Positions 39,754 through 64,000 of a stretch of DNA of 64,000 nt are shown here, one piece after another (positions within the stretch are counted from its first letter, which is position 1; every line of letters starts with the position of its first letter). The position numbers and the translations under genes are program-made. The notes beneath the pieces are model-generated. The model was not told the DNA's origin, ran no database searches, and worked only from the letters and a program-made list of their open reading frames with translations. Source of the DNA: Posidonia oceanica (taxonomy: Eukaryota > Streptophyta > Magnoliopsida > Alismatales > Posidoniaceae). Where the stretch lies: assembly GCA_037176725.1 (NCBI GenBank), contig JAZBRS010000026.1:105073501-105137500 (forward strand). Reading direction: 5' to 3'.

Positions 39754-39762
39754 TTTATATAG
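39754..39762 (+). promoter_or_regulatory. TATA box of the 5' LTR
   Basis: TTTATATAG stands between the GC-rich U3 end and the T-rich downstream part, the place where an LTR promoter is expected. The identical copy in the 3' LTR is at 61,193. The transcription start would be about 30 bases downstream; this is inferred. Confidence 0.55.
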
Positions 39763-42805: not shown

Positions 42806-42816
42806 TGGCGACTCCG
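42806..42816 (+). other. Primer-binding-site-like sequence inside the LTR
   Basis: TGGCGACTCCG here equals the first 11 bases of the real primer binding site at 42,981. It lies 163 bases before the LTR end. The old inverted LTR has the same feature as TGGCGACTCTG (minus strand, 33,495-33,485), at a similar distance from its end. Confidence 0.6.
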
Positions 42817-42980
42817 GTTTTGTCTTATCTTCTTCTTTTCTTTCCCTTTTTCCCTTTTTAAACGTTTTCGAGCTAGGTCTTCCTTCTCGGACATAGCCGC
42901 TTATAATGAGCCTGATTCCGATCGGTGCACGCGAGCTTTGGCATCGTGCATGGACGATCCGAACACCGGGATTACTACAG

Positions 42981-42998
42981 TGGCGACTCCGCTGGGGA
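42981..42998 (+). other. Primer binding site (tRNA-primed)
   Basis: TGGCGACTCCGCTGGGGA starts two bases after the LTR end. It begins with TGG, the complement of a tRNA CCA end, and matches the type of site known in Ogre/Tat elements, which is assigned to tRNA-Arg. I did not check it against a tRNA set. Confidence 0.85.
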
Positions 42999-44299
42999 TA
43001 CTAGACTCCGGCTTTCGCCTCCGCTTTCGCTCGTTTGGGATTTGCTTTCTGTGTTTGCCTTTGTGTTTTCTTTGCTTGTTTTGCCCGCTTTTCGATGCAA
43101 ACACCTAGCGAGTCGCTGCATGGCTACTCCGTTCAGGTTTTGCACCTCTTTTGTCTCGGTTTGCGCTCTCTTTTACTTGGCTTTGCTTCTGTGCTTATTT
43201 ATTTACTTGTTGTCTTGCTTATGCTCTTACTTCCTTTACAACTTACTTGTCTTTACTTTCTTTGCCTTACTTGCTTACTATTGCTTTAATTCTCGCACAT
43301 TGCATGTCTACGTACTTGTTTGGCAATAATACATGCTTTTTGAATGATGAATGCTTCCTTTTACACACCTGCTATGACACTACGCACGCACATACCTTGC
43401 ATACATGCCTTTTGACTCGATGAATGTTTTTCTTCACCATTATGCTCACAGACACTTGCACATGCCATGCACATGCCTTTTGTTGTGTTGTATGATTGCT
43501 TGCTTGCCATGCTTGATTGATTTTCTTCCCTTTCGCACTTGCCATGCTTAGGATAGTAGAAACTTGCTTGCTCTCCCCATGGTTAACTAAAAAATGCAAG
43601 TAAAAGAACCTCTAGGAGCAACTCGAGACTCTGAACAATCCTTCACTCCCTTTGGTTAATAAAATGTGCAAGATAAAAGACTTTAATCATTTGCATAAGC
43701 ATCATATACGGCATGCATTCTTCTCCTCTGAGTCCACCTACTAGTCTGCGAAGGACGGTTCCGGCTTCTCACCCCGATGCTTTGGCATGGTGTGAGTCAG
43801 TCGGTCTGTCCCCCCTTGTCCGGGGTCGTGTCGGTGTTAGTGGAGGGTACCACCCACGCTTTGGCGGGGTAGAGGCCACCAACGCACCACCCTGTCATTA
43901 CCTGAGCTTTGGGCCGGGAGTTAGACAGGGAGCCTACTTTTCTGACTCGAGTCGGTGACCCGTACACCCAGGGATACCCGAAGTAGACAACCTTGCTAGG
44001 AAACACTAGTTAGGTGAGGGGGGCATACTAGAAAGCATACATGACATTCATGCCATAACATAATGCATTTTGCATCTCTTTCTTCTCTAACCCTAGTTTC
44101 CCCTTGTGTCTTTAACAGAGTTCAGTAAGCGATCTCCTTAGCTAGAGCTCGGGTCTCTCCTTTGCTGACATCTCTGTTGAGACACCTGTGCTCGACCATC
44201 CCTTTTTCTGAGCTACTCGTCTTTGCGAGCATAGCTCCTCGTAGAGCCCGTCCCCTTTTCCCTCGTCGCAGCCCCGTTTTGACTCGCTCTCGGTCAGCA
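42999..44299 (+). other. Untranslated leader of the giant element
   Basis: 1.3 kb between the primer binding site and the gag start, T-rich to about 43,700 and then more mixed. No frame over 135 codons and no domain. Ogre elements often carry an extra ORF1 here; I see none. Confidence 0.6.
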
Positions 44300-47200
44300 A
44301 TGGCCCAGCGCACTGTCGAGACCCCCCTCACCCTTGCCTCGGAGGTGGTTCCCGCTCCGGCCCCTCCGGTTCCCGTTTCTAACCCCTCTGTGCCCTCTGT
44401 GACGCCAGGCTTTTCCCCTCTGTCGTCTGGGGCACCCCAGTTTGCTGTGGGACAGTGGCAGACGCCCGTTCCTCCTGATCCGGTCGCCGAGTCCATCTTG
44501 ATGACCACTTCACGCGTTCTGGAGGCACCACTGACCCCACCTTCTCAGGGTTTTGTCACTTTTGACCCTTCTGCTGCGGCGACTCACGCCTTAGGATTCC
44601 AGTCTCCCGGACAGTCCGGATCTCTTGGTTCTGGTTCCTCGCCGGCACTGCAATTCAGTGTTCCCACTGACGGGACACCTGAGGAGCAGTACCAGCAACT
44701 GATGGACACTATCCAGCGGCTGCAGGGTATAGCTCTATCAGTCCGCCCTCCTTCCCCTCCCGTTGTTCCTGAGGTTCCTGTGCGGCCTGCTCCCGCACAT
44801 CTTGCATTGCACTCTGCACTTCCGCCTAGACCATCGTCCCAACTGCTCACGGTTCCGACGATGGGGGCACGTATTCCGCCTCTTGCATCAGCACCACACC
44901 TCACACAGCATGCACCTCCGCCACCTAGTGGCCAGTCATTCGGACTGGTGGGAGCACAGTATCTCGCAGGCCCGTCCCCCGGCATCGCCCCGGTACGGCC
45001 GCTGATGCTCCAGCATCCTGCACCCACCGCACAGCATACCGTTTATCCTCCCCCTTTGCATCAGGCTCAGAATTCCACATGCATCCCTCCTTGCACTCCA
45101 CCACAGCACGGGTATGCCGGCCATCACCTTGCGTCACCAGGCGATGTGATGGTGGATCCGGAGGAGCACCTCGGTGCGACCCATTCGGCATACGTGGTCC
45201 CTGCCCCCGCTGCCCCGTCTCCTGTAGCAGCTATTCCAGACCCCATCAACAATAGGATGGATGTTCTGGAGAAAGCACTGCGTCTAGTGCAGGGCACGGA
45301 CCACCAGACCTACCAGTTCCGAGACCTCTGCTGTTTCCCAGAGGCGGTACTCCCCCCGAAGTTCAAAATACCGGACTTCGAGAAGTATGATGGTAGGGGC
45401 TGCCCTATAGCCCATCTGAAGGCGTACTGCGGTGATCTCGCCCAACTCCAGGCGGACGAGAGGTTGCTGATCCGCCTGTTCCAGAAAAGTTTGTCTGGTC
45501 CGGCCCTCAAGTGGTTTACTTCGCTTGACATGGCTACGATCAAGACTTGGAACGACCTAAGCCAGGCGTTCTTGGAACAGTACTCCTTCAACCTCGATCT
45601 GGTCCCAAAGCGGGCGGACTTGATCGCAACCAAGCAGAATCCGGGCGAGCCGTTCGGGGAGTACGTCGGCCGCTGGCGTGCCCTTGCCTCGCAAGTTCGA
45701 GATAGACCCTCCGACGAGGAGTCTATCGAGATAATCATTAAAGGGGCACAGCCGTCTACTGGAGCTCTGCTTAGCATCCAACCTGTCACGACCTTCACTG
45801 CTTTGATCCGAGCTGGCACTCGCGTAGAGAGTTCGCTGCGGAGTGGCAACTTCCCCGCACTCTCTGTGCTTGCCAGGCAGGCCCTTGCCAGCAACGACGG
45901 TAGTAGCAGCAGCGCCGTCAACAACAACAGCAGTCTCAACAACAATCGTCCCAAGAGGAAGGACCCGCCGAAGCCCGTTGTCGCATACGTCGACTCCCCT
46001 GCTGCGCCCGTCCGTCTGGCGTCCCGGCCTGCCCCTCCTCAGATCTATTACGCACCTGCACCTAGGGCACATCCTACACCACAAATCACTACCACCGCTC
46101 GACCGGTCTATCCTGCCGCACCGGTTCAGCAAGGACAATTCCCGAGGCCGAGACGGCCACCCATGGAGAAGCGGAAGTTCGCCCCACTGGTGGAACCGCT
46201 CAGTGCCGTCCTCCCGAAGGTTGCGTCGCTCCTGCGATTTCCGGAGGTTCGCCCGCCACCAAACCCACTACCGCATTGGTTTAAGGCGAACCTTTTCTGC
46301 GACTTTCATCGAAGCGTCGGGCATTCGACTGATAGTTGTTTCACTCTCCGGAATGCTATCCAGGACTTGATCGAATCGGGAACGATTGTGATCGACACGC
46401 ACGAGGCGTCCACTTCTGCACCATCTCATGCACCTGCATCAGCATCCACCCCAGCCAATGTCGTCCGCCGACCCCTGCCGGAGCACTCCTATTCAGGAGG
46501 CGCAGGGACCTCAGGAATTCACTCCTTGTTTCCTTCCGGGTCTCCCACATCCGTGGTAGATCCTTCCGAGCTTATCCATGATGTTTCTACCCCCTTTCCA
46601 GTCTCTCTCTATCTTGCAGCTATCGCCGGTTCCGAGTCAGGCATCCATATGATCCGACCGCGCGCCAGGCAGGAGCGTTCTCCTGCATCAACCGCCATGC
46701 TTTCCCGGGCCCAAGCCCCAATACATCTCCTAGTCAGACCTCAGCCAGAGCTTCCCGTGCACCTACTAGCAAGACCTCAGTCCCCACCTAGCTTGCCTTC
46801 CCAACTACCCACCTACCCATGCCCTCCTCAGCCTGTAGCCCCTCTCGTGCTTGCCGCACGCGCTCCCGTGGTTGTTAACCTAACTCGGGATACCCATCGC
46901 GTACCCTACAGCTACGCCACAGAAATGTGTGCGGAAGTGACGCGATCGGGGAGGGTCTACAGACCTCCTGCACCAGTAACCAGACCTAGTCATCCACAAC
47001 CTGCCAGACCATTGCCTTTAGTCCAGCCGGCAGTCCCACTACCCTCAAGCCAGCCTCTTGAGCCCACCATAACTGAACCTGTCCCCACAGCTGCACCACC
47101 TGCTACCAAGAAATGCCAGCCTAAAGCCGATATCATATCCCAACTCAAGAAAGTTAAGGCCGACATATCCATCTGGGACCTGATACACACCTCGGCTGAG

Positions 47201-50200
47201 CACCGCGAAGCTTTCCTTCGCGTGTTCCAAGCCGCCCGTGTGTCCCAAGCCATAGAACCTGCTGCCTTGGAAAGCATGGTCGGAATGATCGCGGAGCCCC
47301 AGGTCATCACTTTCACGAGTGATGAGCTGCCCCCGGCGGGGATTAATCACAATCAACCCTTGTTTGTCACGGTGCAGTACAAGAACTTTCGCATTCCCCT
47401 TGCACTGGTTGATAATGGGTCGGGCCTTAACGTCTGTCCCTTGCGAACAGCAACCAAGCTCGGATTCAAGGCCGAGGACATTACTCCAGCTGTAAAGGGA
47501 ATGACAGCTTTTGATAATACTCACCATGACGCTCTAGGGATTTTGGTTATCCCTCTTATCATTGGCCCGGTCACATTCGATGTGGAATTCTACGTCGTCG
47601 ACTTGGAACCGAACTTCAACCTTCTGCTTGGGCGCCCTTGGCTCCACAAGCATCAGGTTATCCCCTCGACCCTCCATCGCATGATCAAGTTCCGCCGAGG
47701 CGACGATGTCATCGTTGTCATGGCGGAGAACTTTGAGAAGGAGCGGATCGAGGCGGTTTCCTCTATCTCGTCGCGGACTGTCCCCTTTGACCCTGATCTT
47801 TCGAACGCTTTGTATCGCGTTAATCGGTGCGAGCCGGTTAACTTTTTACCAGATCTTGAACGTGTCAACTCCTTGGCCGTTCACAACAACCCCTTCCGGA
47901 TGGTCGAGAACGTTTGTCACAGATGGGGCTACGTCAAAGGGACACCGCTCGGGCGACATGGCCAAGGAATCGCTGAACCAATCCTGGCGGAAGAACGAAG
48001 GGACAACGAGGGTCTAGGTTACGACCCTCACTCCGACAAAGGCAAGCGCCCGCAAGCAAAGAATCAGAGAATGGTCATACCTCGGAGCTTGGCCAACTTC
48101 ACGAGCGCAGGTATCCTGGACTCAAGCGCAGTTCAAGTCGCAGTGCCGTCGGAGCCGTGTCAAAGCCCTCCGCCACCGGAGGAGGACTGGGTCTGCGTTG
48201 AGGACTACTACTCGGACGAGGAACAGTCGGGCACGACAGGGGCAGTTCAGATTTGTAGTGAAAGCCAGCCCTATACAGCAGCACATCAGCCGGTTTATCT
48301 AGCCACTCCTTCCACAGATCATGAAACAGCAGTCTCGGCAGAACCCTTGGCAGGTTTGGCAATCTCTGGTTCTCCTGTAGTCATGTCAGCACCATCGGCA
48401 CCAGCTCAAGCACAGTCAGTCAGTTCGCAGACAACCGTTGTCGCATCAGTGCAAGTACCACCTTCGCAGAAAGGTCAATCGCTGAGTTCAGTCAGCAGCA
48501 CAGCTCAGCCCTTTTCAAAGGCTGCATCACAGGCAATGCAGCCAGCTCAATCAGGCATGCACCTCCTTGCCACAGACCGGCAACTTTCATGGCCAGATCC
48601 TATGGCATCAGAGGCCGCGCTCTCATCATCATCATCAGTCGCGGAGAACCAGCTGACCATCGCGGTCTCCCGGCCTTCGGGCCTTCAAGAGAGCACCTCC
48701 GCCCATCCTCTAACAGCAGCAGTCACTCTGGCAGCGTATCCATCTGCAATCCCTCTGACTAGACCATCTGGGGCTCCCTTGCCGGAACAGTCGCAATCAG
48801 GCGCGCCCGTGAGTCAGAGGATACAAGTATCAGAGACAGCAATCCATCCCGCAGCCGAGCCAGTGCCTCAGGCCCTCGGCGCCTACTATGTCGATTCACC
48901 TCCAGATGAGGAAGAAGAGGGGGCAGTAGAAGCCCAAGTCGATTCATGGATGTCAGATCTGGAGCTGCTTTACCAAGAACAGCTTGAATCCATAGTAGAA
49001 GACTTGGCACAACACCAAGCCGCAAAGAGGAAAGGAAAAGCCGTAGTTACGGATCCTCCTCTGCGAGAGGACTCCACCTCCATCATGGTCCTAGAAGGAA
49101 GTTCAATGATGTCGGACTCTCTCAGACCCGACGAGCTCATTACTCTTCAAGCCGAGGGCGGGTCCAGATGGCTTGTACAGCATATGCCTTCCACCAGTAC
49201 ATTGGCAGACTCAGAAGAAGAGACACCAGCGGGTCGCACAGCAGCAGTAACAGAGCAAAGAGCAGAGTCAGTGACAGAGTTGTCAGAAGTTTCAGTGGCA
49301 GATTCACCAGCAGCATCAGTTACAGAGCCAGTAAAGCCTGCAGTAGTGTCATCAGCAGCAGAGCAGACAGCAGAAGCCGCCAGAGCAGAGGTCGCACACC
49401 GAAGATTCAGAAACACTCGGGTAGGCGTGACCATCCTGAGACGTCACCAGGGTCAAGAAGCAGAACTCCTACACTCCTTCGATGTGACAAACCCCACTTT
49501 CGAAAAGGAGATTCTCTCGGAACTTGTTGCGTACGGAGAGGAAGATAATACAGGCGAAGATGAGACTGACGATGACCCCTCGCCTGAGTTCCGACCCTAT
49601 GACGACGACCCAGAAGGCCCGAATCTGCATGTTGAGGAAGAAACAGAAACTATTAACCTCGGCACAGCCGAAGAAACCAAAGAAGTTCGCATCAGCGCCC
49701 TGCTATCACCGCAAGTCAGGATAGAATTCATCGCATTCCTGAGGGAGTATGCGGATGTCTTCGCCTGGACTTATGAAGACATGGTCGGCCTGGATGTCGA
49801 AATAGTGGTCCATAACTTGCCCTTGAAGCCAGAGGCCAAGCCAGTAAAGCAGAAACTAAGAAGATGGCGACCACAGTGGCTGCTCATGATCAAGGAAGAA
49901 ATAATGAAGCAGCTTGATGTCAACTTTTTAAAGGTCGTCCTTTACCCTGAGTGGCTTGCAAACATCGTGCCAGTGCCCAAGAAGGACGGCCGAATCCGGG
50001 TATGTATTGACTACAGGGACCTGAACAAGGCGAGTCCCAAGGACGACTTCCCATTGCCTCACATTGACGTCCTGGTCGACAATACCGCAGGCCACAAGAT
50101 GCTGTCCTTTATGGATGGCTTCTCCGGTTATAATCAGATCAAGATGGCAGAAGAAGACATGGAAAAAACTTCGTTCATCACCCCCTGGGGGGTCTTCTGT

Positions 50201-52927
50201 TATCAGGTTATGCCGTTTGGGTTGAAGAATGCTGGCGCAACATATCAGAGGGCCATGACCACACTTTTCCACGACCTCATGCACCAAGAAGTGGAGGTCT
50301 ATGTGGATGACATGATCGCGAAGACCAAGGAGCCTGAGGATCACCTTAGTTGCCTAAAGAAGCTCTTTGACCGTCTGAGGAAGTACAGACTGAGACTTAA
50401 CCCCAACAAATGCGTATTCGGGGTTTCATCTGGCAAACTGCTCGGCTACATTGTTAGCCAAAGGGGGATTGAAGTAGACCCGATGAAAGCTAAAGCCATC
50501 GTGGAGATGCCACCCCCTAGAACCGAGAAGGAGGTTCGAGGCCTGCTGGGGCGTTTACAGTACATCAGCCGCTTCATTGCACAGCTCACGCCCATCTGCG
50601 AGCCCATCTTCAAACTCCTGAGGAAGAATGCACAAATCGACTGGAATGAAGAATGTCAAGCCGCATTTGAGAAGATCAAGCAGCTACTGGTCAAACCCCC
50701 TGTCTTGGTCCCTCCCACACCAGGAAGACCTCTGCTCCTCTATCTGTCAACCACACAGCATTCCATGGGTGCCGTCCTGGGCCAACACGACGAGTCTGGC
50801 AGGAAAGAGCGCGCCATTTACTACCTGAGCAAAAAGTTCAATGAATGTGAAGCCAGGTACACTGTGATGGAGAAAACCTGTTTATCCCTTGTCTGGGCCG
50901 CACAGAAACTGAGGCACTACATGATGGCGTACCCAGTTCAGCTTTTGTGCCGTCATGATCCCATCAAGTTCCTCTTCCAAAAGCCGGCGCTGGTGGGCAG
51001 ATGTGTCAAGTGGCAGGTGTTGTTGTCCCAATATGACATCACTTTTGTCACACAGAGGTCTATGAAGGGCCAGGCTATGGCGGACCACCTCGCGGATTTC
51101 CCTCTGCCTGAATATCAACCCCTCCAGACGCAGTTCCCTGACGAGGACATTCTTTTTGCGACGGAGGACTCAGAAGAGAGGGACCCTGAAGAGCAAGAGC
51201 AGTGGCGGTTGTACTTCGACGGTGCCGTCAATAAAAAGGGTCGAGGCATAGGTGCAGTACTGACCACGCCACATGGACAGATGATTCCCTTTGCGAGGAA
51301 GCTGACTTTCGCATGCACGAACAACGAAGCAGAATACGAGGCATGCATCTTGGGTTTGAAAGTCGCCCTCGAGCACAAAGCGCAGAAGTTGCACGTGCAC
51401 GGTGATGCCATGTTGGTGATCTCTCAGGTGAATGGCGACTGGAAGACAAAAGACCCCAAGCTCGTGCCATATCACGAATGTCTGCTGAGGCTAATAGAAG
51501 AGTTCGAGAGCATTGATTTCACATACATGAACAGGGCAAAGAATGCGTATGCAGACGCGTTAGCGACCTTGGCTTCTTGGCTCAGCATACCAGACAACAG
51601 CATGGTAGAGGTGTCAGTCACCTGCATTGAGGAGCCTGCCCATTGCATGAATATAGAGGAGGCAGATCCAACAGTGGAGCAGCCATGGTATCATGATATC
51701 AAAGCATTCTTGGAGTCCGGTAGCGTCCCGTCTGGCACCACTGCGGAAGATAAGAGAACTTTGGCGCGTCTGGCGTCAAAGTATGTACTGGGGGGTGGGC
51801 AGTTATACAGAAGATCGTACAACCAGATGCTACTACGCTGCTTGGACAAACCAGAGGCTGACACCGCAATGCTTCAAGTGCATGCCGGGACCTGTGGCCC
51901 GCACATGAACGGTGTCCTCTTAGCCAAGAAGATCATGCTCCAAGGGTATTTCTGGCAAACCATGGAAGCGGACTGCTGCCGTTTCGTGCGTAAATGCCAC
52001 AACTGTCAGATCCATGGCAATTTCATCAAGGCTCCCCCTTATCAGCTGCACAACATGTCCTCGCCATGGCCTTTCTCCACCTGGGGGATCGATGTCATTG
52101 GCGCAATACACCCCGCCGCTTCAAATGGCCATCGCTTCATCATGGTGGCAATAGACTACTTCACTAAGTGGGTGGAAGCAGCTTCCTACAGGACAGTCAC
52201 CGCAGTGGCAACCGAAAAATTCATTAGAAACAACATCGTTGCCCGGTACGGGGTCCCTCACTCCATCATCTCTGATAATGGCACGAACTTCATTGCCAAA
52301 AGAACTGAGGAGTTCCTACAGAATTTCAGAATCAAGCATCACCGCTCCTCACCATATCGGCCTCAGATGAATGGAGCAGTGGAGTCTGCCAACAAGAACA
52401 TCATCAAGATCATGAAGAAGATGGCAGAAACCCACAAGGATTGGCACGATCAGCTCCCGTACGCACTCTGGGCGTACAGGACATTAATCCGGACCTCGAC
52501 GGGAGCCACCCCGTACTCGCTGGTGTATGGCATGGAAGCTGTATTGCCCGTTGAGGTGGAGATACCCTCGCTGCGAATCTTGCGAGAAGCTGAGTTGGAA
52601 GAGGCAGAATGGGTCGAAGACCGCTGCGTCCAACTGAACCTAATCGATGAGCACAGACTACAAGCCATGCACAATGCTCATTGTTACCAGAAGCGAATGG
52701 CTAGAGCCTTCTTGAAGAAAGTCCGGCCCAGAAGCTTCCAGCCCGGAGATCTTGTTCTGCGCGCCGTTCATCTACCAGACGGTCGAGGCAAATTCCGACC
52801 TAACTGGCGCAGACCCTTTGTAGTTAAGCAGATCTTCTCAGGCGGCGCAGTAACTCTTGAGGACATGGACCAGGTCGAGCAGTCTGAGCCGGTCAACATG
52901 TGCTACCTCAAGAAGTACTATCAGTAG
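44300..52927 (+). CDS. Gag-protease-RT-RNase H-RNase H-integrase polyprotein
   Basis: From the ATG at 44,300 the frame is 2,875 codons without a stop (it is open without ATG back to 44,162). Order by residue: Pro/Ala-rich N-terminus; gag core about 345-520 ('PPKFKIPDFEKYDGRGCP'); knuckle 667-680 of type C-x2-H-x4-H-x4-C ('CDFHRSVGHSTDSC'); protease with DNGS at 1038; a G-patch-like stretch near 1208 ('WGYVKGTPLGRHGQG'); a Ser/Ala/Gln/Glu-rich spacer about 1260-1790; RT with YVDD at 2001-2004; RNase H about 2131-2264; a second RNase H from 2302 ('RLYFDGAVNKKG', 'NNEAEYEACILGL'); integrase zinc motif 2528-2569 and catalytic Asp2598, Asp2659, Glu2695 (D-x60-D-x35-E). All catalytic residues are present. 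A second RNase H is known from Tat elements. It supplies the particle, cDNA synthesis and integration. Confidence 0.93.
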   Translation: MAQRTVETPLTLASEVVPAPAPPVPVSNPSVPSVTPGFSPLSSGAPQFAVGQWQTPVPPDPVAESILMTTSRVLEAPLTPPSQGFVTFDPSAAATHALGFQSPGQSGSLGSGSSPALQFSVPTDGTPEEQYQQLMDTIQRLQGIALSVRPPSPPVVPEVPVRPAPAHLALHSALPPRPSSQLLTVPTMGARIPPLASAPHLTQHAPPPPSGQSFGLVGAQYLAGPSPGIAPVRPLMLQHPAPTAQHTVYPPPLHQAQNSTCIPPCTPPQHGYAGHHLASPGDVMVDPEEHLGATHSAYVVPAPAAPSPVAAIPDPINNRMDVLEKALRLVQGTDHQTYQFRDLCCFPEAVLPPKFKIPDFEKYDGRGCPIAHLKAYCGDLAQLQADERLLIRLFQKSLSGPALKWFTSLDMATIKTWNDLSQAFLEQYSFNLDLVPKRADLIATKQNPGEPFGEYVGRWRALASQVRDRPSDEESIEIIIKGAQPSTGALLSIQPVTTFTALIRAGTRVESSLRSGNFPALSVLARQALASNDGSSSSAVNNNSSLNNNRPKRKDPPKPVVAYVDSPAAPVRLASRPAPPQIYYAPAPRAHPTPQITTTARPVYPAAPVQQGQFPRPRRPPMEKRKFAPLVEPLSAVLPKVASLLRFPEVRPPPNPLPHWFKANLFCDFHRSVGHSTDSCFTLRNAIQDLIESGTIVIDTHEASTSAPSHAPASASTPANVVRRPLPEHSYSGGAGTSGIHSLFPSGSPTSVVDPSELIHDVSTPFPVSLYLAAIAGSESGIHMIRPRARQERSPASTAMLSRAQAPIHLLVRPQPELPVHLLARPQSPPSLPSQLPTYPCPPQPVAPLVLAARAPVVVNLTRDTHRVPYSYATEMCAEVTRSGRVYRPPAPVTRPSHPQPARPLPLVQPAVPLPSSQPLEPTITEPVPTAAPPATKKCQPKADIISQLKKVKADISIWDLIHTSAEHREAFLRVFQAARVSQAIEPAALESMVGMIAEPQVITFTSDELPPAGINHNQPLFVTVQYKNFRIPLALVDNGSGLNVCPLRTATKLGFKAEDITPAVKGMTAFDNTHHDALGILVIPLIIGPVTFDVEFYVVDLEPNFNLLLGRPWLHKHQVIPSTLHRMIKFRRGDDVIVVMAENFEKERIEAVSSISSRTVPFDPDLSNALYRVNRCEPVNFLPDLERVNSLAVHNNPFRMVENVCHRWGYVKGTPLGRHGQGIAEPILAEERRDNEGLGYDPHSDKGKRPQAKNQRMVIPRSLANFTSAGILDSSAVQVAVPSEPCQSPPPPEEDWVCVEDYYSDEEQSGTTGAVQICSESQPYTAAHQPVYLATPSTDHETAVSAEPLAGLAISGSPVVMSAPSAPAQAQSVSSQTTVVASVQVPPSQKGQSLSSVSSTAQPFSKAASQAMQPAQSGMHLLATDRQLSWPDPMASEAALSSSSSVAENQLTIAVSRPSGLQESTSAHPLTAAVTLAAYPSAIPLTRPSGAPLPEQSQSGAPVSQRIQVSETAIHPAAEPVPQALGAYYVDSPPDEEEEGAVEAQVDSWMSDLELLYQEQLESIVEDLAQHQAAKRKGKAVVTDPPLREDSTSIMVLEGSSMMSDSLRPDELITLQAEGGSRWLVQHMPSTSTLADSEEETPAGRTAAVTEQRAESVTELSEVSVADSPAASVTEPVKPAVVSSAAEQTAEAARAEVAHRRFRNTRVGVTILRRHQGQEAELLHSFDVTNPTFEKEILSELVAYGEEDNTGEDETDDDPSPEFRPYDDDPEGPNLHVEEETETINLGTAEETKEVRISALLSPQVRIEFIAFLREYADVFAWTYEDMVGLDVEIVVHNLPLKPEAKPVKQKLRRWRPQWLLMIKEEIMKQLDVNFLKVVLYPEWLANIVPVPKKDGRIRVCIDYRDLNKASPKDDFPLPHIDVLVDNTAGHKMLSFMDGFSGYNQIKMAEEDMEKTSFITPWGVFCYQVMPFGLKNAGATYQRAMTTLFHDLMHQEVEVYVDDMIAKTKEPEDHLSCLKKLFDRLRKYRLRLNPNKCVFGVSSGKLLGYIVSQRGIEVDPMKAKAIVEMPPPRTEKEVRGLLGRLQYISRFIAQLTPICEPIFKLLRKNAQIDWNEECQAAFEKIKQLLVKPPVLVPPTPGRPLLLYLSTTQHSMGAVLGQHDESGRKERAIYYLSKKFNECEARYTVMEKTCLSLVWAAQKLRHYMMAYPVQLLCRHDPIKFLFQKPALVGRCVKWQVLLSQYDITFVTQRSMKGQAMADHLADFPLPEYQPLQTQFPDEDILFATEDSEERDPEEQEQWRLYFDGAVNKKGRGIGAVLTTPHGQMIPFARKLTFACTNNEAEYEACILGLKVALEHKAQKLHVHGDAMLVISQVNGDWKTKDPKLVPYHECLLRLIEEFESIDFTYMNRAKNAYADALATLASWLSIPDNSMVEVSVTCIEEPAHCMNIEEADPTVEQPWYHDIKAFLESGSVPSGTTAEDKRTLARLASKYVLGGGQLYRRSYNQMLLRCLDKPEADTAMLQVHAGTCGPHMNGVLLAKKIMLQGYFWQTMEADCCRFVRKCHNCQIHGNFIKAPPYQLHNMSSPWPFSTWGIDVIGAIHPAASNGHRFIMVAIDYFTKWVEAASYRTVTAVATEKFIRNNIVARYGVPHSIISDNGTNFIAKRTEEFLQNFRIKHHRSSPYRPQMNGAVESANKNIIKIMKKMAETHKDWHDQLPYALWAYRTLIRTSTGATPYSLVYGMEAVLPVEVEIPSLRILREAELEEAEWVEDRCVQLNLIDEHRLQAMHNAHCYQKRMARAFLKKVRPRSFQPGDLVLRAVHLPDGRGKFRPNWRRPFVVKQIFSGGAVTLEDMDQVEQSEPVNMCYLKKYYQ

Positions 52928-53299
52928 CCGAGAGTAGCCATTGCGGATTCTCCCTCCCATTTGTCATGTTCTCGCCATTTGCATGCCTTTGTATCTCTGT
53001 TTGCTCTATCCACTCCCCACTTCACTTCGTCCCATTTCCTACATTTCCTGACGTTGCAGCACTCCTGTGCGTCCCTGTTCATCCTGTTCACATTCCACAT
53101 TCCTCATACATTGCATCTTGCCTGGTGATGAAAACCGGAGGTGCTTGCCTGCTGCGAAAGGAGTCTCCCGACCTCACCTGATACTACTTAGATGTCTTGA
53201 CTAGTGAGGGAGCCACCACTCAATGAGAGCGGGCGAAATGCCCAAACCCCTAAGGACTCACACCCTTTAGAAGAGTGCTAGGTGTTAGTCAGAAAGTAG

Positions 53300-53600: not shown

Positions 53601-54181
53601 CCCCGTACCTCTCACCTACCCTAGAAAAGAGCCAAAGCCCGGGTCAGGCCCTCCTCGTTTCCAAAATGGGAGTAAGGAGAGCCCTGTACACCGACATTAA
53701 AAAAAAGAGAGAGAAGAAAGAGTTAGGAGTGAGTGTAAGTCCTTGAGAGTTTGGCATGGAGCCCGTCCTCTCTACACCACCACCAAACATCACCCATACC
53801 TTCCCCCAGAGTGCCACCAACAAGTCAGGAGTCCGAGTAGAGTCCGGTGAGTTAAGGACCGCTCCCTTTCTATACAGCAGGCACCAAAGCACCCCGATAC
53901 TGAGGGCAAACTACGCCAAATCACACGCATCTGCACTTTCCAGTCATCTCCCCCCTCTCTGATCATCCTACTCCGCAAAGGCTCGCTCCAGCGCTGAGAC
54001 AGTACCTCTACTTAGCATGCGTTGGCACCGTCAGGCTGCGACAACCCGGGGCTCCCGACAGTCCCCGTCACAATAACAGAGTGTCCTCATGCTTATACAT
54101 GTTCAATTGCCATAGTCTAAATGTTTACTGCTTATACATGTCGCACCTGTTTCTACCAGTTTCAGAATCTGCTTTCCTACG

Positions 54182-55483
54182 ATGGTTGCGCTTATATGGG
54201 CTCTGATGATTCACAGTCTTGGCAACAGGTATCTGAAGACTCTTGTAACAGCCGTCTGCCCACATCCTGCAATCTGTGCAATGGGTTTCCCCACCTTGGT
54301 AACCCCCACGCACTGTTCCGAGATCCTACGAGAATGGATCGGCAAGCTTACAAAAGATGACTGTGAGAAGCTGCGCCTGTGGGGCATTCCGACCAAGCTG
54401 CTCAAGGCTGCTGATGTAGAAGTGAGCCGCCATCTTCTGTGTGCCGCTGCGCGATTCTGGAAACCGGCACACCATGTCTTCCGTTTCGGCAGAACTGAAC
54501 TGACACCCACACTGGAAGAAGTACGTCGAATCTGCGGCTTTTCCAAGATCTTGGGGCCACCTATCTTCATGAGGCGTGACGGATACTTGGCAGTCCTGAA
54601 GCAGCTGACCGGCCTCTCTACCCAAAGTTGCCAGCAGAAGCTGGTTTGTACCAGCGGGCCTGCGCCTCTGCTTCGCCTAGCATACTTTGATGATATTGTG
54701 GAAAAGCGTGCTGAACTCGGAGACGAGCTGTGGCTCCGAGGGTTTGTCACCCGTTTCCTAGGCGAGCTGGTCTTTACTCATGGCAAGGTAACGGTGGCCG
54801 TCGAGATCGCTGAAATAGCACTCGCCGTGGTGACCCAGCACATAGACCTGGCACCGGTTGTCTTGGCAGAGACCTACCGCGGTCTGGACCGCATCTCGCA
54901 TCGCTGCCGCCACTTTCATGGTTGCGGATCGTTCATTCAGGTCTGGCTAGCGGCGCACACTGAGATAGACCTTCTGCGCCCCCAAGTGCACGCTTTCGAG
55001 GCCTACCGCAGCAGCGGCCATGCCAAGGCAATCAAGAGCGTCAAGGAAGAATATGAAAGGCTATCAGGACTGACAGACGACACAGTCACATGGCGCATCA
55101 TTCCTTCTGCAGCCGAAGCATTCACTGTCTTCTTCAATACACGCGACATGCGACTGGTTGTGCTACCAGGATTTACTGCGGGTGTAGAATATCACCCTAT
55201 CAGAGTCATGCGCCAGTTCAGCTTCCAGCAGGGCGCCTTTGTCGACAGCACAGCGCCTAAGCTCCTTCAAGAATATCCCCTTAGTACAATCGCCCCCACA
55301 AAGGAGCTGGCCAACCTAATGCAGCATGGGGTGCGATCAACAGACATCGCTGCAATGAAAGGCGTAGGGTGTACCCCTGAGTACATCACTGAAGTGCAGG
55401 ACCTCTGGCCCATTGACGAAGTCCCGCCAAGTGGCCCCTTGTTCCCTGACTCTGGAAACTCAAAGAAGGCCCGAATCAGCTAG
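54182..55483 (+). CDS. Plant mobile domain/DUF7745-like protein carried by the retrotransposon
   Basis: A 433-codon frame, 1.25 kb after the pol stop and in the same direction, intact to its TAG. Residues 92-114 read 'FWKPAHHVFRFG' and 'ELTPTLEEV'. This fW.p..h.FrfG..eltPTlEE pattern marks DUF7745 and the wider plant mobile domain (PMD) superfamily. Upstream are 'LRLWGIPTKLL' and a further helix-rich body; no transmembrane segment, so it is not an obvious envelope. PMD proteins occur both as host genes (Arabidopsis MAIN and MAIL1, needed for transposon silencing and meristem upkeep) and inside plant transposons. Its role here is unknown. The first ATG is used, but ATGs at residues 9 and 34 are possible. 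It needs its own transcript or reinitiation, because a stop and 1.25 kb separate it from pol. Confidence 0.7.
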   Translation: MVALIWALMIHSLGNRYLKTLVTAVCPHPAICAMGFPTLVTPTHCSEILREWIGKLTKDDCEKLRLWGIPTKLLKAADVEVSRHLLCAAARFWKPAHHVFRFGRTELTPTLEEVRRICGFSKILGPPIFMRRDGYLAVLKQLTGLSTQSCQQKLVCTSGPAPLLRLAYFDDIVEKRAELGDELWLRGFVTRFLGELVFTHGKVTVAVEIAEIALAVVTQHIDLAPVVLAETYRGLDRISHRCRHFHGCGSFIQVWLAAHTEIDLLRPQVHAFEAYRSSGHAKAIKSVKEEYERLSGLTDDTVTWRIIPSAAEAFTVFFNTRDMRLVVLPGFTAGVEYHPIRVMRQFSFQQGAFVDSTAPKLLQEYPLSTIAPTKELANLMQHGVRSTDIAAMKGVGCTPEYITEVQDLWPIDEVPPSGPLFPDSGNSKKARIS

Positions 55484-55927
55484 GGCCATCATGCCGCTGC
55501 CATTCTGTCTTCCTTTCAAGTTGTGCTGTACTTTTTGGCCTGTCACGGGCATGTAACCAACAATTCTATCAATGCAAAACTGTTTTGTGCTGGCTGTTCA
55601 CATTTCAAAGCTGATCTGGCATTCCGGGCTCCTCGTCGCTCACATCCGGAGGCCCCTTGGCCCGACTGATTGCTCGCATGACGCAGGAAAGTCCTCAGCA
55701 AACGACCCAGGCTCCAGGACCTCCGCGAACCCGCGCCGTCCAACCTGCTACCGGACATACCCGGCTGAGTCTCCTTTGGGCTGGTACCCCAAACTACTCG
55801 TCTGACAAACACGTCAGTTTTGTCCATCCTTCGCTTTTCCCGATACCGGGGACGTTTCGACTAACCCCTGGCATCATCCTGATACCAGGGGCATCTTTTC
55901 AGACGCCCCGCGGTATCCCACCCTTGT
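55484..55927 (+). other. 3' noncoding region after the PMD-like frame
   Basis: Non-repetitive, C-rich sequence before the tandem repeats; the frames present are short and without motifs. Confidence 0.4.
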
Positions 55928-56041
55928 CTCATCTCCTCTTTGCCGGCCGATAAGTCCGATATCTTATCACCATTCCCAACCAGTCAATCTCATCATTATC
56001 TCATCTCCTCTTTGCCGGCCGATAAGTCCGATATCTTATCA
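55928..56041 (+). repeat. Two copies of a 71-bp unit
   Basis: 'ctcctctttgccggccgata' followed by 'agtccgatatcttatcacc' occurs at about 55,931-55,970 and again at about 56,002-56,041. A diverged piece ('cgataagtccgacaacttat') returns near 57,720. Confidence 0.75.
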
Positions 56042-56565
56042 CCTTTTTCAACCAAGCTCTCATCATTACCTCACCCCCTTTCTTTAGCTTAACTTCTCAT
56101 CATGATCTCATCCCCCTTCTTTAGCTTAACTTCTCATCATGATCTCATCCCCCTTCTTTAGCTTAACTTCTCATCATGATCTCATCCCCCTTCTTTAGCT
56201 TAACTTCTCATCATGATCTCATCCCCCTTCTTTAGCTTAACTTCTCATCATGATCTCATCCCCCTTCTTTAGCAGTAACTCTCATCATTACCTCACCCCC
56301 CTTCTTTAGCATTAGTTCTCATCATTACCTCACCCCCCTTCTTTAGCAGTAACTCTCATCATTACCTCACCCCCCTTCTTTAGCATTAGTTCTCATCATT
56401 ACCTCACCCCCCTTCTTTGGCTTAACTTCTCATCATGACCTCATCCCCCCTCTTTAGCAGTAGTTCTCATCATGATCTCATCCCCCTCTTCAGCAGTAGT
56501 TCTCATCATGATCTCATCCCCCTCTTTAGCAGTAGCCTCTCGTCATGATCTCATCCCCTCTTACC
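56042..56565 (+). repeat. 37-bp tandem array in the 3' UTR
   Basis: About thirteen to fourteen units of about 37 bp, each with CTCATCATGATCTCAT or CTCATCATTACCTCAC followed by CCCCCTTCTTTAGC. Two unit types (ending 'ttaactt' and 'agtaact/attagtt') form homogeneous or alternating blocks. Confidence 0.85.
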
Positions 56566-56644
56566 AAGCAACCAGGCATTCATCAATCATTCAGCAATCA
56601 ATCATTCAGCATTCGATCACTCATCAATCAATCATTCATCAATC

Positions 56645-57712
56645 AAGCACCCTTAGGCTGATATCCTAAACTATCTACTCTCAGGCTGATATTCCTAAAC
56701 TATCGACCCAGGCTGATATTCCTAAACTATCTATTCTCAGGCTGATATTCCTAAACTATCTATCTCTTGGCCGATCCATGGTTGGCCCGCAGTTGTGTTA
56801 TACGGCTGACATCCAGTAACTGTCCCTCGCAGTGCCGCCAGGCTGATAACCTAAACTATCTATCTAGGCCGGTAACCTAAACTACCTAGGCTGATATCCT
56901 AAACTATCTATCCAGGCTGATATTCCTAAACTATCCGGCATCTGCGTTATACGGCTGACATCCAGTAACTGTCCCTCGTAATTGCCCCCTCCAGTTGATA
57001 GGACTGTAAACTATCTATCTAGGCTGATATCCTAAACTATCTAGGCTGATATCCTAAACTATCTATCTAGGCTGATAACCTAAACTATCGATCTAGGCTG
57101 ATATCCTAAACTATCCATGGCAATTACGTTATACGGCTGATATCCAGTAACTATCCCTTGCAATTGCTCTTTCCAGTTGATAGGACTGTAAACTATCTAT
57201 CTAGGCTGATATCCTAAACTATCGATTTAGGCTGATAACCTAAACTATCGATCTAGGCTGATATCCTAAACTATCCATCGCAATTGCATTATACGGCTGA
57301 CATCCAGTAACTGTCCCTCGCAAGGCCGCCAGGCTGATAACCTAAACTATCGATCTAGGCTGGTAACCTAAACTACCTAGGCTGATATCCTAAACTATCT
57401 ATCCAGGCTGATATTCCTAAACTATCCGGCACTTGCGTTATACGGCTGATATCCAGTAACTATCCCTCATGGTTTGCCCCTTCCAGTTGATAGGACTGTA
57501 AACTATCTATCTAGGCTGATATCCTAAACTATCTAGGCTGATATCCTAAACTATCCATCTAGGCTGATATCCTAAACTATCTATGGCAACCATGTTATAC
57601 GGCTGATATCCAGTAACTATCACTCACAACTGCGCATTCCGGTTGATAGGACCGTAAACTATCGCCAGGCTGATAACCTAAACTATCGCCCTCGGCTGAT
57701 GATCCGAAACTC
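56645..57712 (+). repeat. Second tandem array with higher order, 3' UTR
   Basis: Short units of about 20-26 bp (AGGCTGATATCCTAAACTAT with CTATCTA or CGATCTA spacers) are grouped. Each group is closed by 'gttatacggctgacatccagtaact', which occurs near 56,798, 56,947, 57,129, 57,289, 57,438 and 57,594. The spacing is about 147-182 bases. Confidence 0.85.
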
Positions 57713-58213: not shown

Positions 58214-61200
58214 TGTTGACACCCCATTTTGGCAGGCTGGATCGTTTGGAGCCTTCCGGTGGCTGCTGGACCTGAACCCAGACCCAAACCTACACCTTCC
58301 TCCCCTTCTCTTCCCTCAAAGCAAGCCCAAACTCAACCTGGGATTACCTCCCTTTCCCGAACCCGAAAACCAACCAAAATCCATAGGAACACTCACCCCT
58401 GATGACTTAGCAAACCCACCAAAAAGCCTGCAAAATCTCAAACCAGACCCCTCCCGAAAACCCTAGGAAACTTAGGCAAAATTACCCTTTTTCTACACCT
58501 CAAAACCCCTCCAAAACTTCCTCAAAACTGAACCAAAACTCCAGGACCAGAACTAGAAACCCTAGACCCCGCACCCGCCAAATTTCACCCCTTTCTGAGA
58601 CCTTTAAGACCCCTTTCCGCTGGAATTATCGTTTTCTCTCTCCGGGATTATCGTTTTCTCTCTCCTCTCTCTCTCCTGATTATCGTCTCTCTTCTCATCC
58701 CCTTCTCGCCCTCCTTCTGGCTTGGCAGCGGGCCCCCTTTGTACTCCTATCCCTCCTCTATCTTATTCCTATTTTTATTTTATTTTTACCATCTTCCTTG
58801 AATTTTTAAAAATCTTTTCCCTCAAACCTACCTCTTTCCCTTTTATTCCCTTTTTTCCTCTTTTCTTCTTCTTTTTCTTTTCTTCTTCATCCCTTTGCAA
58901 AAAACCTCAAAAATCCTTAAAAATCTGTAAAACCCCAAGATCTAAAAGAAACAAATCAGAATCCCCAGAAAAAGTAATTAGAAACATTAAATAAGTAATT
59001 AAAAACCCAAACTTAATTAAATCAAGCTAAAAAGAAAATCAAGTGTGCAAACTAAAAAATGCAAAACAAACTAAAATAAAATACCGTAAAATCAACTAAA
59101 AAACTGAAGTAAAATCAGAACCTACCAAAAATGAAAACCCCACTAAAAGAATTAAAAAACAAACCCTAGAGAGAAGAATTAAAAGTCAAATACTAAAACA
59201 AGTAATTAAAGAGAACAAAAAACTTAACCTAATAAACATAAGAAAAAAACAACATAAGAACTTAATTAAAAAAGAAAAAGAAAATACAGTTAAAAGACCT
59301 AAAATACTTAATCAAATCAGGAAAAATCCAACTAAAAAACATCAAGAAGAATTAACAAATAAAAAACAAAAGCATGGATCAAAAGACTTAAAAAAGGAAA
59401 ATACAAAAGACTAAAACTAAAAGCCCAAAACCCACTCAAAATAATGTAAAAATAAATCCTAAAAACCCTAATTAACATCCTAAAATACTTAACAAGAAAA
59501 CACAATTTTAAAAACAATTTAAAAGAATTTAACCAACCCCTAATCAAGTGGAAAACAAATCAAAAACAAAATGGAACCCTAAAGTCCTAATCAAGCCTAA
59601 AACACACTAATTAACCCGAAAACGGTCATTAAAAAATCCAGATAAACGTCTAACCAACAACCCAAGTCACCCCATATTTTTATTTATTTTTATCTCTTTT
59701 TTTCCTATTTTTTCTTTCCATCTTTCTTTCTTTCTCCCTTTTTTTTCTTTTTCTCCTTCCTTACTGGGCTTATCAGCCCGTTTACCTTTTCTTTCTTTTT
59801 TTCAAAACTTTCGGCCCGCGGCCCGTTGCTACAGTCGTCGTCCTCCTTCCCTCCTCCCGCAGGTCTACAGTGCCGGCTGCACAGCTACAGTCCTGCCATG
59901 GCAGCTGCAGCGCCAGCACCTGTCACCGCAGACCTGCGCTCGCACGCCTCTGCCGGACCAGACCAGCGTGCGCCGCATCGCGTCCGTGCCTCCTGCCACC
60001 GCCTCTCCGCATTAATTCGCCGCAGCCAAGCCTGCAAGCAATCAGAAGTTTAAGGGCGAAAAAGGAGCGGAAACGGGGCGCTGGAAGGGGAGGAGAAAGG
60101 AGGAAATCATCCCAGAGAGAGACGACCATTTTTTTCCAGCGAATCCCGAGTGAGAGAGTGGTCGAATTCTCCCCTGAAATCCATCCACGAACACCCGACT
60201 TCGGCCTCTCTTTCTTCCAGCGAACCAGCATCCAAAACACCTCCGAAACCACTCGAAATCCACTCCCCAATCTCGCCCGAGTTCCCAGCAACTCCTTCCC
60301 CTCCTTCCACAGCGAAACAACCCGCATTTCACCCAGAAATCCCTCTGAAACTCACACCGAACCCAACGCACACCCATCCGAGAATTCCCAACTCCACAGA
60401 CCACCTCTCCTCCCTAAACTCTGCCCCGTTACTCACTGAGATACTACCTCTCCAACCCCGCTTTGCTTCACCTCCAGTTCCCCTCACAGACGAAACGCCC
60501 CACTTCAAACACCTTGCTCCATTTCTGTCCGGAAACCGACTCCACCTTCAAACTCCCTCTACACCCCTCGGAACAGCAAGCCAACCGTCCAGAAAGCCTC
60601 GCCGGACCTCCAGCTACCTCCCCGAAGCTCCAGCTCGATCCTGAGAGCAACACACCGCCCCGCTCACCTCCGGCAGCTCGCAGTCGACCCACAACCGCCG
60701 GACCGCCTGTCAAGCTGCGGAGCTTCTGCCTGATCAATCCCGAAGCACCGGAGCAACGTCCTGAAGACGTTCCAACCGTCGCGCGCCACCGAGGACGTCC
60801 GCAGCGACCAGACGACGTCCGCCGGCCGTCTCCGACACTGCTGGGGTCGGGAGGACGCACCGGACACAGCCGCAGGTACTCCTCACCCTCCCCTGCTCTC
60901 TCTCCTCCTCCTCTTGCTTCTCCGCCAACCAGAACCAAGTTTCCGGGCCTCCAGCGCCGCCCGCGTCTCGCCGGTCTCCCTTTCTTCTCCGGCGCCGATC
61001 CCCTGACCTCCACGACGCTCCGGCTAGCAGAGCGAGCTCCGGATACTTCCCAGAGCTCCGGACGATCGCCGGCACCAAGCCCCGCCGGTCTGTGCCTCTC
61101 CAACCTCCCCTGTCGGCGGTCACGAGCACTGCCGGCGATCTGCTACAGTGTTCGTCGACCGCCGGCGACCTACTGTTCCATTATTTTTTCCCTTTATATA

Positions 61201-64000
61201 GTTTAGATGTAAACATTGCATTGTTGCCTTAAGTTACTTCTTTTTTGCGTTTTAATCCTCTGTTCATTTTATTTTGCTTAGTTTTTAATTTAATACCATG
61301 CTAAATTGCAACTTATGTTTCTGTTTCTCTGTATTTTCTTTTCAGTCCATTTACTGTGCGTTTCAGTTATAACATTTTGTGCTTTAGCCCCCCTATTTTC
61401 CATTATTACACTCAGCTCCTGTTTTAAATCAGTTCATACATTTGCATTAATTTTACCATACTGCATTGCATTATAGGTCCCTGCATGTTCCTGTTTTTGC
61501 ATTTAGGTCCAGCACACTGTAGTAACTTAGGTTTTGATTTTAATTTCTGGTTGATGCATTGCACTTTTGCCCCTCTGTTTTTTCATTTTTACACACAGGT
61601 CCTTTTTAAATACACAGTAATCATTTTGCATGCATATCTGCTTACTACATTGCATTTTCAACCCTGCATCTTTTAAAAATTGCATGTCAGTCCCCAGACC
61701 ATGATTTCAGAGTATATTTCCCATATGAAATTGCATTTTCAGACCCTGCATGATTTGAAAATCACACATAGGTCCCTGCACCTTTTGAAAAATCATGTAA
61801 AAAGACTGTTTTGCCCCTAAGTTGCACTTTAACTCCCATGCTTGCAAAAATTGCATGTAGACCCTCCACTTGCATTCCCGGACTCCCCGGGACCCCTGTT
61901 TTCTGGAAAATTTGCATCTTAGCCCCTTTCTTTTTCAAAAATGCCTTTAAACCCCTGTTCTTCCCAAATGGCTTTTCCTTGTCTTCTCTGGCTTTGCATG
62001 CATTCTGCATCCATTTAATCTTGCATTTTAGCTCCCCTTCGCATACACTAAGCACTTTTAACCCCCCTTCACTTGGGAGGACCTTCGGCACACCCCTAGG
62101 ATCTCCTGAACACTTAGATCTGTTCTTCTCCCCTGTTCTGGTCCTTCCGCTCCGAAGCTGCGATATCTTTCAATCCGACCGTCGGATCTCCTCAAGTAAG
62201 CTGCCCAGGCGACCGCAGCGAAGCGCTCTTCAGCATGGACCAAACAGATCTCCGATCAGACTCCCGGATCTCCAGGCATATCTTCCTGAACTTCTGCACT
62301 GCATTCATCTTGCATGCCATTTGCACCGTTTTGCGTGCCCTTTACTTTTCTTGCCTCGTTTTGCGTGCCATCGCGTTTTATCGCTCCATTTTGCGCGCCG
62401 CTTCTTTGTCTTGCACCGTTTTGCATGCCATTTAGTTTTTTCGCCTCGTTTCGCGTGTTTTCATGTTTTATCGCTCCGTTTTGCGTGCCGCTTCTCTATT
62501 TTGCACCGTTTTGCGTGCCTTTTACTTTCTTCGCCTCGTTTTGCGTGCCGTCGCGTTTTCTCGCTCCGTTTTGCGCGCCACTTCTCTGTCTTGCACCGTT
62601 TTGCGTGCCTTTTAGTTTTCTCGCCCTGTTTCGCGTGTTTTCATGTTTTATCGCTCCGTTTTGCGTGCCTTTTAGTTTTCTCGCCCCGTTTCGAGTGTTT
62701 TCATTTTTTATCGCTCCGTTTTGCGCGCCGCTTCCCTGTCTTGCACCGTTTTGCGTGTCTTTTAGTTTCCTTGCCCCGTTTCGCGTGTTTCCTTGCCTTA
62801 TCGCTCCGTTTTGCGCGCCGCTTCTTTGTCTTGCACCGTTTTGCGTGCCCTTTAGTTTTTTCGCCTCGTTTCGCGTGTTTTCATGTTTTATCGCTCCGTT
62901 TTGCGTGCCGCTTCTCTATTTTGCACCGTTTTGCGTGCCTTTTACTTTCTTCGCCTCGTTTTGCGTGCCATCGCGTTTTCTCGCTCCGTTTTGCGCGCCA
63001 CTTCTCTGTCTTGCACCGTTTTGCGTGCCTTTTAGTTTCCTTGCCCCGTTTCGCGTGTTTCCTTGCCTTCTCGCTCCGTTTTGCGCGCCACTTCTCTGTC
63101 TTGCACCGTTTTGCGTGCCTTTTAGTTTTCTCGCCCCGTTTCGCGTGTTTTCATGTTTTATCGCTCCGTTTTGCGCACCGCTTCCCTGTCTTGCACCGTT
63201 TTGCGTGCCTTTTAGTTTTCTTGCCCCGTTTTGCGTGTTTCCTTGCCTTCTCGCTCCGTTTTGCGCGCCGCTTCCCTGTCTTGCACCGTTTTGCGTGCCT
63301 TTTAGTTTTCTCGCCCCGTTTTGCGTGTTTTCTTGTTTTTCTCGCCCCGTTTTGCGCGCCGCTTCTCCGCCTCGCACCGTTTTGCGTGCCTTTTGGTTTT
63401 CTCGCCCCGTTTTGCGTGTTTCCTTGTTTTTCCCGCTCCGTTTCGCGTACCACCTCTTTGTCTTGTACCGTTTTGCGTGCCTTTTAGGTTTTTTGCCTCG
63501 TTTTGCGCGCGGTCTTGTTTTCCTGCACCGTTTTGCGTGCCCTTTCGTTTTCTCGTCTCGTTTTGCGTGCCCTGGTGTTTTCTTGCCCAGTTTTGCGCCC
63601 TTCTTTCGTTTTCACGCACGGTTTTGCGTTCTGGTTCCATTTCTTGCCCCATTTTGCAGGACAACCCTGTTCTCGCATCCTTTCGCATACTTCTTTCGTT
63701 CCCCGCACTGTTTTACGCCGTTTTCCCTTGCATGTCGATTGCATCGCATGGTTTTTCTCGCTGTTTTGTTTTATCGCCCGCATTTGCATATAGGGCGGTG
63801 ATGCTTACTGTCCGGAGTTCTCACGAGCCAGGTTTCGCCCGGTTCGGAACACGGACAGCGTTGCTGAGCGCTTAGATTGCACGTTTACTTCCTTGCATCG
63901 TTTTCCATCACTTAGAACACACCTTTGAGCATTTAGACAGGCATTCATTGGCACTTAGGCATTCAAAGTCTGCATTTCCCTGCATATGCGAGCGTAAGCC
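58214..64000 (+). repeat. 3' LTR, first 5,787 bp
   Basis: The same as 36,775-42,561 at offset 21,439, with two substitutions seen. It includes the TATA box (61,193) and the 30-bp array (about 62,309-63,639). The window ends about 418 bases before the expected LTR end. Confidence 0.93.

Follow-up and report, generated by a model that had tools for sequence, protein, structure and literature searches.

A plant mobile domain gene kept by purifying selection in a young Tat/Ogre-like retrotransposon of Posidonia oceanica, with conserved signals that predict a spliced message

A Tat/Ogre-like retrotransposon of Posidonia oceanica carries an accessory gene that encodes a plant mobile domain (PMD) protein. 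The element was analysed within a window, the whole 64,000-nucleotide stretch of contig JAZBRS010000026.1 considered here. The account that we regard as probable in its entirety is that this gene, of 400 aa from the ATG at 54281, has descended with its element over a long period under purifying selection and is expressed from an mRNA spliced from 44014 to 54228. The donor in the leader would join the acceptor at 54228, with gag-pol removed as in retroviral accessory genes, and the PMD protein would be translated from the resulting spliced subgenomic mRNA. With this account, an "extra ORF" becomes a testable gene with a predicted mRNA, a start codon and a candidate RNA target. Moreover, its putative splice sites are named, the selection acting on it can be set beside that on RT-integrase (RT-INT), and the element PMD provides an element-side handle on the origin of host proteins of the MAIN/MAIL type.

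The open reading frame at 54182-55483 on the forward strand (433 aa, containing VFRFGRTELTPTLEE) encodes a plant mobile domain protein. It matches PF10536 (PMD) at 67.3 bits (E 1.7e-18, residues 76-350) and PF24924 (DUF7745) at 49.9 bits (E 3.1e-13), above the Pfam gathering cut-offs of 34.9 and 26 bits, and thus bears out the membership that an earlier note had proposed from the letters alone. The 400-aa protein, rescanned, scores 67.7 and 50.1 bits and covers positions 8-289 of the 347 in the PF10536 profile; its DUF7745 score lies below those of four comparison DUF7745 proteins (P0104, P0105, P0106 and P0110; 149-200 bits). Hydrophobicity in 19-residue Kyte-Doolittle windows has its maximum of 1.6 at residues 170-188 of the 400-aa protein. 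Since no window exceeds that value, the statement that the protein has no membrane segment holds, with one borderline stretch, and an envelope-like identity was rejected on the same measure. The structural comparison suggested in the note yielded nothing that could be used: two predicted models are poor (mean pLDDT 51.7 and 48.3), Foldseek against the PDB with the first model returned 222 matches at E <= 10, not one of which reached E <= 0.001, and a sequence search found no relative of solved structure at E <= 1.

The start of the gene probably differs from the one first assigned, since residues 1-33 are probably non-coding. Judged by the copies, the conserved start is M34, the ATG at 54281, where MGFPTLVTP or a near variant is common to them. 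The element family is large, with 71,736 first-look candidates for the PMD protein in the genome, 97 of them scored. Thirty close sequences were compared, L010 (the window) to L039; they are the top 30 of the 97 by protein similarity and therefore biased towards intact copies. From 54281 on, their diversity is 0.019/0.009/0.056 at codon positions 1/2/3, against 0.014/0.023/0.021 in the first 33 codons and 0.044-0.049 in flanking non-coding sequence. No stop is present in 51 of the 97 scored candidates, and 42 have a single TGA. In 19 of 20 sampled close copies with a single TGA, an in-frame stop falls 28 codons before M34; the fetched piece of the twentieth (L082) holds no stop, so its TGA lies elsewhere. 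Because a stop precedes M34 in 19 of 20 copies and the codon-position pattern is absent from residues 1-33, these residues are placed outside the proposed gene, and the first 15 or so codons of the 433-aa frame look like the 3' end of an intron.

The whole element spans 36775-64418, its last 418 bases lying outside the window (Table 1). Its LTRs differ at 3 of 6,205 sites, and a CTGCT target-site duplication brackets it in a CTG-rich flank. If 1.3e-8 or 7e-9 substitutions per site are assumed each year, the LTR differences correspond to an insertion age of about 19,000 or 35,000 years. Together with the uninterrupted gag-pol, these few differences fit the young, intact element of the earlier description. 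About 1.3 kb of tandem repeats of roughly 90 bp lie inside each LTR (40882-42189 and 62321-63628).

Table 1. Features of the element and of the predicted PMD message in the window
Feature	Position	Strand	Remarks
5' LTR	36775..42979	+	6,205 bp; starts TGTTGACACC; from self-BLAST and comparison with the 3' LTR
Primer binding site region	42980..42998	+	GTGGCGACTCCGCTGGGGA; adjoins the 5' LTR
Predicted 5' donor TAG|GTGAG in gag leader	44014..44018	+	GTRAG conservation
Possible short leader intron	44014..44118	+	CTAAC-like branch motif; acceptor CAG ending at 44118; 105 nt
gag-pro-RT-RH-aRH-INT polyprotein	44300..52927	+	one frame; mechanical ORF from 44162
Non-coding block, possibly structured RNA	53728..53909	+	inside the predicted large intron; about 180 nt
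Predicted branch point CTGAT and 3' acceptor CAG	54203..54228	+	conserved signature
Predicted 5' UTR part of the PMD exon	54229..54280	+	without ATG
PMD coding sequence	54281..55483	+	400 aa and stop; PF10536, PF24924, codon-position pattern, dN/dS
Tandem-repeat-rich 3' non-coding region	55927..57687	+	downstream of the PMD gene
3' LTR	58214..64000	+	extends to 64418 past the window; then CTGCT

Within the polyprotein, gag, G-patch, RT, RNase H, RVT_3 and the integrase core score above the Pfam cut-offs, and the protease and the integrase zinc-binding domain below them. The order is RNase H (residues 2161-2291), RVT_3 (2352-2470) and integrase (2637-2734), and the gag-pol ATG at 44300 is kept in all nine aligned leaders. 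We take RVT_3 to be the archaeal-type RNase H (aRH), and the primer binding site may be complementary to the 3' end of tRNA-Arg. A second, archaeal-type RNase H between RH and INT is given for Ogre and Retand, angiosperm Tat clades, in the available text of PMC6317226, and a tRNA-Arg primer binding site is called typical of Ogre in that of PMC9289625. By its RT-RH-RVT_3-INT order, the element belongs to the Tat lineage of Ty3/gypsy. It is filed as Tat, and as Ogre-like only, because gag-pol forms one frame (44162-52927), whereas Ogre is described as having two ORFs split by an intron-like region. This frame precedes the PMD gene, in agreement with the position downstream of integrase, in a Tat-type element, that had been assigned to it. 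A G-patch domain lies between protease and RT (47927-48022); such domains are listed for other plant Gypsy elements in the available text of Alvarado-Marchena 2022 (PMC9289625).

Elements of this kind are not new, since PMD frames in Ogre/Gypsy elements have been published (PMC9289625, PMC6317226, PMC5418596, as far as the available texts go). The domain is recorded in 57% of sampled Ogre elements (Neumann 2019, PMC6317226) and, according to Alvarado-Marchena 2022 (PMC9289625), outnumbers every other atypical domain in plant Gypsy elements, its function there being unknown. The window element resembles these PMD-carrying Ogre/Tat elements, as they are characterised there, in its Tat-type polyprotein, its PF10536 frame downstream of INT and its very large LTRs. 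It adds predicted introns, both for the PMD mRNA and in the leader, which do not appear in the available text of two Ogre descriptions (PMC6317226, PMC9289625). For DUF7745, the literature search returned no publication. Steinbauerova 2011 is reportedly cited for PMD-carrying Ogre/Tat elements, and plant envelope-class elements are said to have been reported as spliced (Vicient 2001).

Divergent copies make it clear, from their substitution pattern, that the PMD frame is under purifying selection, at a level similar to RT-integrase. Between the window and eight divergent copies (68-81% protein identity; synonymous divergence 0.88-2.12), PMD dN/dS by the Nei-Gojobori method is 0.075-0.135, and over the 36 pairs among these nine sequences it has a median of 0.115 (range 0.075-0.225), all values being rough because dS is at or near saturation. 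The median for RT-INT is 0.104 (range 0.044-0.249, 28 pairs), with two copies covered in part (149 and 305 of 1,021 codons) and none of L003; the PMD value exceeds the RT-INT value in six of seven pairwise comparisons with the window. The proposal that the frame is kept by selection stands, with values among divergent copies well away from 1. An in-frame stop interrupts the PMD frame in 18 of 29 sequences and 11 are stop-free; the set comprises the window, 8 top and 20 hand-picked copies from 118 scored matches, chosen by protein or profile score in a way that favours intact ones, and counts over these copies are not independent because the copies are related.

PMD and RT-INT nucleotide distances rise together (r 0.95; exact Mantel 4 of 720) over the six elements with near-complete RT-INT, L002, L003 and L006 having been dropped for poor coverage. 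Judged by these distances, the PMD frame has travelled with the polyprotein for a long time. The word "captured", used in the earlier note, is therefore not supported as the name of a recent event peculiar to this element: distances co-rise, dS between copies reaches 0.88-2.12, and the kind is already published.

A search of the genome with PF10536 gave 80,729 first-look candidates, of which 116 were scored. The single full-domain match in one frame among those scored is L102 (330 bits, 698 aa), whose open frame marks it as a genic candidate. BLASTP aligns the window PMD to it at 28% identity over 190 aa (E 1e-11). A second PMD type found in this search is high-copy; at the two loci examined, a MULE/Mutator transposase frame (L105) and a SWIM finger (L103) lie beside it, and the L105 PMD shares 33% identity with the window PMD over 42 aa (BLASTP). 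An unrooted tree (25 sequences, 173 columns) separates the Gypsy-borne PMDs from L102, from five PMDs of the MULE type and from ten DUF7745 proteins. Support for the branch that unites DUF7745, genic and MULE-type sequences is SH-aLRT 94.9 and UFBoot 83; its attachment inside the Gypsy set is unsupported (48.1/41). The tree thus separates the element PMDs from L102; being unrooted, it does not settle whether the domain passed from host to element or from element to host, a direction that is also called open in PMC5418596. Recent capture from the genic or MULE-associated PMDs of this genome was rejected as the likely history on the distance to L102, the separation in the tree and the co-rising distances. 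Compared by description alone, the window PMD may resemble PMD-A1/PMD-A2 of the available text of PMC5418596, where Gypsy-encoded PMDs are distinct from genic and MULE-borne ones.

PMD matches are also regularly spaced on contig C62. Between 0.36 and 1.86 Mb (L105-L109), many of them on one strand follow each other at about 25.46 kb, for example at 1511983, 1537454, 1562907 and 1588368, as if a 25.5-kb unit with a PMD frame were repeated in tandem. In the one unit examined (L105), a MULE/Mutator transposase frame adjoins the PMD.

As to function, we reason from named relatives. MAIN and MAIL1 are host PMD proteins that act with PP7L in silencing, as reported in the available text of PMC7156037, PMC9899485 and PMC5418596, and in tea plant PMD genes are described as a source of 21-nt phasiRNAs (PMC10673657). 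The window protein shares the plant mobile domain with host MAIN/MAIL1 (PMD-C); on the host side, the best genic candidate found, L102, is 28% identical to it over 190 aa and may be PMD-B or PMD-C. The likeliest single function, put forward tentatively and with much less than even confidence, would be to act in the nucleus in favour of the element's transcription and counter to its silencing, through or against the host module of PMD and PP7-type phosphatase.

In the specific form that the earlier note proposed, which is possible but doubtful, the element PMD would be an anti-silencing mimic that binds or displaces host MAIN/MAIL-PP7L and so relieves silencing of the element. Ikeda 2017 (PMC5418596) speculates along similar lines that MULE-captured PMDs are used for anti-silencing. 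Such mimicry is consistent with the selection on the frame, with its homology to L102, the genic candidate in this genome (28% identity over 190 aa), and with the need for MAIN, MAIL1 and PP7L in transposon silencing in Arabidopsis, stated in the available text of PMC5418596, PMC7156037 and PMC9899485. However, the element PMD sits on a deep branch of its own, far from L102 and from the MULE-associated PMDs, and the DOWN motif of MORC1 (CATGCAGTTT) lacks an exact match in the window, so that a shared DNA target is not indicated. With one mismatch allowed, the motif occurs 14 times in the window against 7.1 expected, a number reached in none of 100 shuffles. A target shared through this motif was nonetheless rejected, since 5 of these 14 matches fall in the element, with no concentration there and no exact match.

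Splicing of the PMD mRNA is inferred because donor and acceptor signals are both conserved. Of 29 sequences, the window and 28 copies divergent from it, 28 carry a [CT]AG|GTA site at 38-99 nt upstream of the PMD start codon, and a CURAY-like branch motif precedes the acceptor by 18-28 nt in 28 of 28; the acceptor is also present in 20 of 20 further close copies. In the aligned stretch, 6-mer conservation peaks at CAGGTA and AGGTAC, which overlap and are each unchanged in 24 of 29 sequences; the start-codon 6-mer AATGGG comes after them (22 of 29). An ATG occurs in 2 of 28 segments between acceptor and PMD start, against 20 of 28 segments of equal length just upstream. One divergent copy with an open PMD frame, L054, is without the acceptor motif, and its upstream sequence looks replaced.

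On the donor side, leader regions were fetched for eight divergent and six close copies. Five of the eight divergent leaders matched the window (L069, L074 and L075 did not and were dropped), and the alignment joins these five with the window and three of the six close copies. GTRAG stands at 44014 in six of six alignable divergent leaders, window included. Among the 18 columns in which all six keep GT, this donor ranks first, with a mean consensus match of 6.67 of 9 positions and 5.17 for the runner-up. It may double as the donor of a leader intron of 105 nt, for which a branch-like motif is found in six of six divergent leaders and the acceptor AG is aligned in four of six. The stretch between LTR and donor holds 25 ATGs; therefore, simple scanning would miss the PMD start unless more of the leader is removed.

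The simplest reading is that the PMD protein may be made from a spliced subgenomic mRNA in which 44013 is joined to 54229. In the literature searched, which left out PMC2596294 (on Ogre splicing) and Steinbauerova 2011, no earlier report of a spliced PMD frame was found. Splicing as such is not new for the group, because the available text of a 2025 review (PMC12786077) ascribes to the plant elements Ogre and EVADE functional introns from which subgenomic RNAs arise. What is new here, as a prediction only, is the conserved branch point and acceptor before the PMD ATG together with the leader donor.

The donor comparison, which covered the gag leader and the pol-PMD interval, also points to a site at 53847. 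It has a mean of 7.11 of 9, with 4.78 for the next in the pol-PMD interval, and so matches the consensus better than the leader donor does (6.67). GT is present at 53847 in nine of nine copies and GTGAG in seven. This rival may pair with the acceptor at 54228 in place of the leader donor, which would yield a short intron in the 5' UTR, and it counts against the large intron. Being the best-conserved donor of its interval, pairing plausibly with the acceptor at 54228 and lying in a highly conserved block, this site would suit a PMD gene that is expressed internally and not from the LTR, by way of a promoter or exon near 53730-53846 and a short intron at 53847-54228. We consider such an internal start unlikely: two of the nine copies read GTGAA at the site, and conservation spans the whole block and is not centred on the donor. 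A CCAG acceptor at about 53812, inside the block, was rejected, its AG being missing in four of nine copies.

The block itself (53728-53909) is 74-85% identical in all eight divergent copies, and sequence flanking it on both sides aligns poorly. Diversity among the 30 close sequences falls, within the block, to values that are among the lowest between pol and PMD. Rfam gave no match at E <= 1 in 52900-54300. RNAalifold on 13 sequences (the window, eight divergent and four close copies) predicts 35 pairs, three of them with changes on both sides; for a run with nine sequences, z was -5.3 relative to 60 column shuffles, which do not preserve dinucleotides and are lenient as a control. If the large intron is real, the block would be limited to unspliced RNA, as expected of an element for export or packaging.

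From this position comes another reading, quite improbable in our view, in which the PMD would be a regulator like Rev or CERV that acts on the block to export or protect gag-pol RNA. We know of no RNA-binding motif in PMD, which counts against it. Both-side changes are limited to 3 of 35 predicted pairs, and the z of -5.3 comes from a lenient control. The block may instead serve packaging, splicing or priming, and splicing of 53847-54228 alone would not confine it to an intron. In favour are the location of a conserved and possibly structured block within the predicted large intron (44014-54228) and the precedent of Cer1, a Gypsy/Ty3-related element whose CERV, made from a spliced mRNA, is required to export genomic RNA, as given in the available text of PMC10309623. 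The parallel with CERV lies in an accessory frame downstream of pol and a subgenomic spliced mRNA, here predicted; the difference is that its protein family is unrelated to PMD and that splicing in the window element is a prediction only.

A broader extension, to which we give still less credence, is that Tat/Ogre elements run a programme like that of complex retroviruses, in which a PMD regulator from a spliced mRNA, with the block of about 180 nt, confined to the unspliced RNA, as response element, would control export or survival of gag-pol RNA. If true, RNA handling and not chromatin silencing would be what the whole PMD family, with host MAIN/MAIL among its members, did ancestrally. A PMD frame that is a passive, functionless passenger, intact only through the youth of its element, would suit the very young insertion (3 of 6,205 LTR differences) and the stops in 18 of 29 sequences, but we discount it almost entirely, as the codon-position pattern in 30 close sequences, dN/dS near 0.1 and close to that of RT-INT, and persistence over near-saturated synonymous divergence contradict it.

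The accessory gene with a predicted spliced message, our preferred reading, sits in an element with genic surroundings. The element is placed in a genic region because several gene-like frames lie in the window: a ubiquitin and ATG17-like (autophagy) frame at 4245-7670, the ATG17-like match scoring below its curated cut-off; a frame with an aspartyl protease match at 19819-21024; and one matching zf-UBP/UCH ubiquitin hydrolase at 21920-25570. On the reverse strand, RVT_3/RNase H and zf-RVT frames at 13406-15836 are probably remnants of another reverse-transcriptase element. Closer to the element, 33357-34011 is inverted and 77% identical to 42280-42954 in the 5' LTR, and is perhaps the LTR of a degraded relative in opposite orientation.
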